NCBI RefSeq assembly: GCF_000024625.1
Contig: NC_013407.1
Location: forward strand, 1,302,001 to 1,366,000
Direction of reading: 5' to 3'
Length of the DNA stretch: 64,000 nt
Origin: Methanocaldococcus vulcanius M7
Lineage (GTDB): Archaea; AGJL01; Methanococci; Methanococcales; Methanocaldococcaceae
This document shows, piece by piece, positions 27,899 through 29,113 of this stretch. Position 1 is the first letter of the stretch; every line of letters starts with the position of its first letter. The notes under the pieces are model-generated. The model ran no database searches and was not told the DNA's origin. It saw only the letters and a program-made list of their open reading frames with translations. The translations under genes were made by a program, and so were the position numbers.

Positions 27899-28549
27899 AT
27901 GCAGAGAGTAAACCCAACAAGAATGGAACTTCTAAAATTAAAAAACAAAATTAAATTGGCTGAAAAAGGGCATAAATTATTAAAACAGAAAAGAGACGCT
28001 CTGATTATGGAGTTTTTCCAGATAATTGAGCAAGCATCCGATCTTAGGGAAAAGGTAGAGGCAAAATTAGAAGAGGCATATAAAGATTTAATTATGGCAG
28101 AGACCGTTATGGGAACCTTGGCTGTTAAAGAGGCCTCATTCGCAGCAAAAAATGAAAAATTAGAAGTTGACATGGATACAAAGAATATTATGGGAGTTAC
28201 TGTTCCTACTTTTGAAATATACAATGTTAAAAGAAAGGTTGGAGAAAGAGGATATTCTCCTTATGGAGTTAGCTCAAAATTAGACGAATCTGCTAAAAAA
28301 TTTGAGGAAGCATTAGAACTAATAACCGAATTAGCAGAAATAGAGACATCTATTAAACTCTTAGCAGAAGAGATCATAACCACAAAAAGAAGAGTTAATG
28401 CGTTAGAATACGTCATAATCCCACGACTAAAATCTCTCAAAAAATACATCTCAATGAGATTAGACGAAATGGAAAGAGAAAACTTCTTCAGATTGAAACT
28501 AATTAAATCAAGAATTGAAAAAAGAGAAGCGGAAGGAGAGGCATTATAA
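27899..28549 (+). CDS. atpD: A-type ATP synthase subunit D
   Basis: Central-stalk coiled-coil subunit of the archaeal A1Ao ATP synthase, 216 aa. [30 protein letters not shown] at the N-terminus is split into two long antiparallel helices, with the [13 protein letters not shown] motif near 165. Subunit D transmits rotation from the membrane ring to the AB head. It has GAGGGAG eight bases upstream. The other atp genes are not in the window. The last 69 bases are duplicated 126 bases downstream (see the repeat entry). Confidence 0.95.
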
Positions 28550-28675
28550 ATATAATATAAAACCAAGTTTGGTTTTGATGCAACTTTTTCTAAAAGTTGC
28601 AGGGAGAACTTCTTCAGATTGAAACTAATTAAATCAAGAATTGAAAAGAGAGAGTCGGAAGGAGAGGCATTATAA
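28481..28675 (+). repeat. Duplicated 3' tail of atpD with a two-hairpin spacer
   Basis: The last 69 bases of atpD (28481-28549, stop included) recur at 28607-28675 with only three mismatches. The spacer of 57 bases carries two near-perfect hairpins: AAAACCAA/TTGGTTTT at 28559-28576 and TGCAACTTTT/AAAAGTTGCA with a TCT loop at 28579-28601. The second copy ends with the same GCATTATAA. Tail duplication of a gene is what site-specific integration at a gene 3' end leaves, but a plain tandem duplication with an inserted palindromic element would look similar. Confidence 0.85.
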
Positions 28676-28729: not shown

Positions 28730-29113
28730 ATGGTTTACAGATTAGTTGGAAGAATCTCAAAATTAGAAAAAAAGATAAAAGAAGAAGAAGTAAAATGCGA
28801 TTTGATAATTAAAAATGAGGCAAAAATAGAACCCATAGTTGCAGAAGAAGATGTCGAATTAAAACAAGGAGACATAAAACCAATAAAAATTAAAAAAATC
28901 AAGATCCCTCCAATGTCCGTTCTGCTCATTTGTCCATACGGGAGACATAGAGCAGGACAAGTTATTGCAGTTGGAGAAGAAGTTCCAATGCCCATAGAAG
29001 TAGAGAGAGAAGTTGATATGGCCACATTTGCCTGCGGTATGGATGGGGAAGTTAAAAAAGGAGATTTAATTGGAATGTTGCTTATGGTTTCAGCAGAAAA
29101 AAGAAATAAATAA
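28730..29113 (+). CDS. DUF22 family protein
   Basis: 127 aa. The C-terminal half (PPMSVLLICPYGRHRAGQVIAVGEEVPMP, read across residues ~63-90) matches the DUF22 family found in methanogens, a small beta-rich domain. The N-terminus is a short lysine/glutamate-rich helix. GGTGAG before the ATG sets the start. Its position after atpD is the same as in M. jannaschii as I recall, despite the tail duplication lying between them. Function unknown. Confidence 0.8.
   Translation: MVYRLVGRISKLEKKIKEEEVKCDLIIKNEAKIEPIVAEEDVELKQGDIKPIKIKKIKIPPMSVLLICPYGRHRAGQVIAVGEEVPMPIEVEREVDMATFACGMDGEVKKGDLIGMLLMVSAEKRNK

Follow-up and report, generated by a model that had tools for sequence, protein, structure and literature searches.

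A probable mobile hairpin element with a long duplication of the atpD tail in Methanocaldococcus vulcanius, from an apparently undescribed family in Methanococcales

Introduction

Integrases typically duplicate gene tails at the 3′ ends of tRNA genes and protein-coding sequences (CDS), and in the tRNA elements of tyrosine recombinases the 3′ tail of the gene is both restored and duplicated. Gene ends are targeted by casposons as well: the recognition motif of the A. boonei casposase, TCAAATC, is situated close to the 3′ end of tRNA-Pro and lies upstream of the 14–15 bp duplications that the enzyme produces, and family 1 casposons use the 3′-distal regions of protein genes as targets (PMC6614799). 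Among single-strand transposition systems, the guide tetranucleotides of IS608, located 5′ of a hairpin, pair with the cleavage and target sites (PMC5934647), and REP hairpins operate like IS608 ends (PMC8266576). Tiny mobile hairpins, sometimes double, are found at intergenic and genic positions in the mitochondria of sponges and Allomyces, without flanking duplications in the latter (PMC2800124). Finally, small non-autonomous repeats, such as the prokaryotic MITEs and the Rickettsia palindromic elements, occur in and near the genes of bacteria and archaea (PMC10969869).

Here, we analysed a stretch of 64,000 nucleotides from the genome of Methanocaldococcus vulcanius M7 (NC_013407.1, positions 1,302,001 to 1,366,000 of the forward strand; hereafter, the window), in which the tail of atpD is present twice, on both sides of a short spacer. 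Very probably, a small mobile hairpin element of the non-autonomous kind has entered atpD at its 3′ end and has thereby duplicated 75 bp of the target. Our confidence pertains to this identity, i.e., a mobile hairpin element with a long target duplication, and is far lower for the individual steps of the mechanism discussed below. The likeness to the elements of tyrosine recombinases lies in the restored and duplicated gene tail; however, here the tail comes from whichever gene was entered rather than from a fixed att core, and the hairpin elements have neither an integrase nor internal genes. With the casposons, the elements share targets at tRNA 3′ ends and in 3′-distal regions of protein genes, a T-loop-like motif, and a target duplication, but this duplication spans 20–82 bp rather than 14–15 bp and contains the motif, and the elements themselves are 28–246 bp long, lack genes, and possess a hairpin on one side only, without terminal inverted repeats. 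The closest resemblance in layout to REP/RAYT and IS200/IS605 is that of a short, dispersed, non-autonomous hairpin with a conserved guide-like motif on its 5′ side that is able to pair with a site on the 3′ side; the differences are that most carriers of the archaeal hairpins lack a Y1 transposase, that the target duplication is long, and that gene 3′ ends are preferred. Unlike in Allomyces, the long duplication is the hallmark of the archaeal hairpins, and whereas MITEs likewise show target-site duplications and empty sites, they carry terminal inverted repeats, in contrast to the hairpin at one end only and the long, variable duplications seen here.

Results

The duplicated tail of atpD

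The final 69 bases of atpD (28481–28549) recur at 28607–28675 of the window, with 66 of the 69 positions identical, beyond a 57-base spacer. A repeat finder extended the pair to 28475–28549 and 28601–28675 (70/75 identical, 93%; start-to-start distance 126), and when the region was shuffled 100 times, the top 69-base self-match comprised at most 41 identical positions, compared with 66 for the real atpD tails. The first-pass annotation of the window had measured the pair exactly (66/69, spacer 57, offset 126); it had also pointed out that 126 is a multiple of three, which seems irrelevant because the offsets differ in other family members and a stop codon closes copy 1. The spacer folds into two hairpins (28559–28576 and 28579–28601; z = −5.5 as ssDNA). 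The features of the locus are as follows.

27899..28549, + strand: atpD (A-type ATP synthase subunit D, 216 aa), the gene that served as target, intact (PF01813, E=1e-66)
28475..28549, + strand: target copy 1 (Y), the final 75 bp of atpD with the stop codon (repeat finder; single in empty-site relatives)
28550..28600, + strand: inserted hairpin element (E), 51 bp, flanked by the two tail copies and missing in one-tail relatives
28559..28576, + strand: hairpin 1, AAAACCA-AGTT-TGGTTTT, the variable part of the element (fold; other sequence in relatives)
28573..28579, + strand: heptamer TTTTGAT, conserved and guide-like, 5′ of hairpin 2 (shared by almost all 102 sites; complements the target start)
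28579..28601, + strand: hairpin 2, TGCAACTTTT-TCT-AAAAGTTGCA, conserved across the family as its hallmark (recurrence, stem-base exchange, fold)
28601..28608, + strand: start of copy 2 (8 nt), AGGGAGAA compared with AGAGAAAA in copy 1; A>G and C>T changes cluster here family-wide
28601..28675, + strand: target copy 2 (Y′), the duplicated atpD tail, non-coding (repeat finder)
28730..29113, + strand: DUF22 gene, the original downstream neighbour (PF01629, E=6e-18; same neighbour in single-copy relatives)

The spacer hairpin is a dispersed repeat

The spacer hairpin, TTTTGATGNAACTTTTnnnAAAAGTTNC, is present in 17 of the 36 Methanococcales genomes surveyed (a phylum-wide query gave the same 36), with up to about 18 copies in each; a strict version of the pattern was matched in 15 of the 36, and a reversed control pattern in none. 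Hairpin 2 reads TTTTGATGCAACTTTTTCTAAAAGTTGC at atpD and mostly TTTTGATGAAAC...GTTTC elsewhere, and its stem-base pair changes on both sides jointly (A-T in 90 and C-G in 11 of 102 sites). The heptamer TTTTGAT lies 5′ of hairpin 2 in nearly all of these sites, a conservation that is partly ascertained, given that the search pattern includes TTTGATG; the pairing test described below is free of this effect on its target side. The first hairpin is variable, with one common form being TAAGAGGCA..GAGCGAAGCGAG..TGCATCC and another one TGGACATTAATTrGGGCTGAAAGCCCyAACTTAATGGACGAG. The length of E is 51 bp at atpD and ranges from 28 to 246 bp across the family. Within about 8 kb, no inverted partner of the hairpin, either as a terminal inverted repeat or as the opposite end of a longer element, was detected except for one nested inverted copy (L156/L168). 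Rfam covariance models, applied to seven loci, matched only tRNA, Pab160 and CRISPR sequences, none of them over the element, and we found no description of such a hairpin family in the open-access literature. Provisionally, we consider the family to be new, that is, an apparently undescribed group of non-autonomous hairpin elements. The first-pass annotation, which rightly placed two hairpins in the spacer, took the latter for the remaining ends of a deleted element; instead, the spacer is itself the dispersed element, and copies of its hairpin occupy dozens of unrelated positions, an outcome that the same annotation had named as speaking against its own reading.

Elsewhere in the genome of the window (G000, 1.76 Mb), one element follows a tRNA-Val gene and is accompanied by a decayed tail copy (L213, G000:C1:1730610), and another follows an ornithine carbamoyltransferase-like gene, with a 53-bp duplication (L214, G000:C1:1383976). 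In IMG/VR, the 27-base hairpin is located directly 3′ of a stop codon in two tailed-virus-like contigs (L231:4384-4410 and L232:4356-4382), with no tail duplication visible beside it by inspection.

Each copy duplicates the tail of its local gene

At 48 of 91 hairpin sites, the 3′ tail of the preceding gene is copied just after the hairpin (score of at least 18, start at most 12 nt from the hairpin), compared with 2.3% of 1500 random positions in the same loci. The other 43 sites show no clear duplication and might represent decayed, nested or differently inserted copies. Across 28 non-redundant loci, the duplication is 20–82 bp long (median, 49) and, in 25 of these, covers the sense 3′ end of an upstream gene (7 tRNAs and 18 CDS); in three loci, one of which is also among the 25, it spans the 5′ end of a left-hand antisense gene, and one of the 28 is unassigned. 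The tRNA targets include those for Val, Met, Pro, Ala, Arg, and Cys, and the protein-coding targets, identified by sequence reading, include ornithine carbamoyltransferase-, ribosomal protein S15-, SMC-, BioA-, and LeuD-like genes. Selection can explain this bias toward gene ends because only duplications that extend beyond the gene end keep the gene whole, and the strand bias of the insertions fits the purine-rich target motif described below.

In the Methanococcus-like genome G026, tail-hairpin-tail-hairpin-tail arrays close large surface-protein-like genes (L242, L243, L246, and L247), and the tails within the arrays vary between copies. At one locus of G008 (L161), the gene seems to continue into the hairpin and to end inside it, such that the element is now part of the coding sequence. 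Three elements of G024 (L224, L225, and L227) apparently lie within CRISPR-repeat-like sequence, AATCAGACCCTTAGGGGGATGGAAA, all with the same AATTAGAG junction.

Empty sites and history of the insertions

At the six loci tested, relatives without the hairpin have a single tail; therefore, it was the insertion that made the duplication. For atpD, exact or near-exact empty sites (flank overlap of −75) are found in eight congeners (G002, G005, G006, G007, G009, G010, G011, and G013), and further such sites correspond to L173/L161 in G001 (−57), L167 in G008 (−62 for 63), L170 in G004 (−48), L154 in G001 (−51), and L155 in G009 (−45). Thus, the earlier proposal that the atpD tail was duplicated through insertion, with the upstream copy leaving the gene intact, is borne out. 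Of the two states anticipated for the atpD-DUF22 junction in relatives, a single tail copy was encountered, in the eight congeners, and a larger integrated element in none.

In a tree of 600 bases of the atpD locus, the carriers G000/G004 and G001/G012/G008 are close together, the non-carrier G006 falls among these, and G020, also a carrier, is placed in another family. This patchy distribution needs loss combined with separate gain or transfer, and the simplest reading is that of one ancestral insertion followed by loss in G006, along with a separate insertion in G020. Loss of the element is easy because the 75-bp direct repeats can recombine. The second tail of G020 is G020's own sequence, and its hairpin type and AGGGGG junction are as in the others. 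It is unlikely that the entire atpD tail passed from one family to another, since copy 2 of G020 is G020-like.

Rules of the junctions

The target in its pre-insertion state pairs with the TTTTGAT located 5′ of the hairpin at 5.43 of the 7 positions when wobble is included, compared with 3.29 ± 0.22 at other offsets; with Watson-Crick pairs only, the best register lies one base beyond the best wobble register, so that the pairing geometry is not fixed. The target motif, RTTSRAA, resembles the tRNA T-loop sequence GTTCRAA, which explains the tRNA targets, because the T-loop is a good match to the TTTTGAT-complementary site. The first 8 nt of Y′ agree with their own target at 6.4 of 8 positions and with shuffled partners at 3.6 ± 0.24. 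We rejected the origin of these 8 nt from a fixed element-borne primer, given that the own target is matched far better than the others.

The disagreements between Y′ and its target are strongly directional near the junction. At positions 3–8 of Y′, there are 50 mismatches/210, among them 27 A>G and 11 C>T changes (38 jointly) but no G>A or T>C. By contrast, the ratio for the same substitution classes at positions 9–30 is 20 to 15 (p=2e-6 vs positions 3–8), and past position 8 the spectrum is ordinary. Deduplicated counts give 28:0 vs 16:13 (p=4e-5), and in the clean set the GTTC of the gene is changed to GTTT in all tRNA copies. The A>G and C>T changes at positions 3–8 are exactly those that preserve pairing with a partner strand through G.T or G.U; they could originate from a wobble-paired intermediate, from deamination of an exposed strand, or from later selection on an RNA hairpin.

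Discussion

How could a gene-less hairpin copy the tail of the gene it enters? We tentatively propose that a folded strand is inserted at a position selected by its guide and that the stretch between two joining points is then copied. A single strand of E would fold into hairpin 2, and TTTTGAT would pick a roughly complementary RTTSRAA site on the sense strand of a gene. The right end of E would be joined at the start of this site and the left end 20–82 nt farther downstream, and the stretch between the joining points would be duplicated by DNA synthesis, such that the own tail of the gene would come to lie before E and the second tail after E. The opening ~8 nt of this latter copy would probably be made in a paired intermediate tolerant of G.T/G.U wobble, and recombination between the direct tails would delete E, accounting for the losses. 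It is conceivable, albeit far from assured, that these hairpins constitute a novel class of mobile elements, guide-directed and copying gene tails, with a 7-nt guide, T-loop-like sites, wobble tolerance, and an enzyme not previously known for such action. If so, essential genes could be entered harmlessly, and the variable tail arrays of G026 might serve as swappable C-terminal cassettes.

Several known routes have to be weighed against the mobile element as outlined above. Single-strand transposition of a REP-like hairpin by an IS200/IS605-like enzyme (TnpA/RAYT) is unlikely, although the order of guide, hairpin and junction is as in IS608 ends (PMC5934647) and REP hairpins are alike (PMC8266576). 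The Y1 transposase domain (Y1_Tnp, PF01797) is encoded in only 5 of the 36 genomes and is missing from G006, G007, G008, G011, G012, G024, and G026. Furthermore, to our knowledge, a long target duplication is no part of the IS200/IS605 mechanism. No autonomous element or transposase for the hairpin family was found, and TnpB (PF07282) is missing in element-rich genomes. In the genome of the window, beyond the window itself, a Y1 transposase match runs across three in-frame TAG codons and is apparently broken (G000:C1:48334-48675).

Insertion of the hairpin DNA by a casposase or a CRISPR Cas1, with duplication of the target, is quite unlikely. Casposon targets are alike, namely, the tRNA-Pro 3′ end and 3′-distal regions of protein genes (PMC6614799), and Cas1 is present in 14 of the 15 carrier genomes defined by the strict pattern vs 9 of the 21 non-carriers, a weak association, perhaps due to thermophily alone. 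However, the position of the motif, upstream of the 14–15 bp duplications in A. boonei and inside those of 20–82 bp here, differs, E lacks paired terminal inverted repeats, and Cas1 has no match in G021, which does carry hairpins.

Target-primed reverse transcription, a route of retrotransposition that yields duplications of variable length, would be compatible with the long, variable duplications, the constant 3′ and variable 5′ ends of the element, and the G.U-type wobble at the junction, but it is very unlikely in view of the absence of the reverse transcriptase domain (PF00078) from 35 of the 36 genomes, among them every element-rich one. As agents, we rejected reverse transcriptase, the Y1 transposase and TnpB, each being missing in element-rich genomes.

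Equally hard to credit is the view that the hairpins are immobile, functional 3′-UTR elements next to which local slippage or recombination gave rise to the tails. Most hairpins do lie directly after genes, and the strand-specific wobble pattern is consistent with RNA-level constraint; nevertheless, the empty sites lack E together with one repeat, insertions are also found over the 5′ ends of antisense genes and, apparently, in CRISPR-repeat-like sequence, and there are tandem and nested copies.

Least credible of all is the scenario of the first-pass annotation, in which a virus or plasmid integrated at the atpD 3′ end via a tail-restoring att and was later deleted to its ends: tail duplication at tRNA and CDS 3′ ends does fit integrases, but nothing else indicates one, given that local gene tails are copied, which is impossible for a site-specific integrase, that the same hairpin lies beside the tails of >20 different genes and would need a separate attP for each integrase, that no relative with the locus harbors an integrase-bearing element between the atpD tails or any such element at atpD, that the genome holds no further copy of the atpD tail (a possible attP), and that no plasmid or phage record matching the element was found.

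The mobile hairpin element, which we favor, represents an apparently undescribed family in a well-known archaeal order, with long and variable gene-tail duplications that fit no product of transposases, integrases, casposases or retroelements. The family explains partial copies of tRNAs and gene tails in Methanococcales genomes, and the entry of repeat elements into essential genes (atpD, SMC-like, S15-like, and tRNA) without damage is of interest per se. The junction wobble signature is reproducible, and the defined hairpin substrate makes the question of the host enzyme concrete.

The element itself can be elaborated further. At the atpD locus of G008 (L008/L153), about 90 bp of extra hairpins (GAAGCGTTAGCTTC, CAGAAAGCTTTGCTTTCTG, and others) are lodged inside the element's own hairpin, and a module similar to this one is found at L172 of G012.
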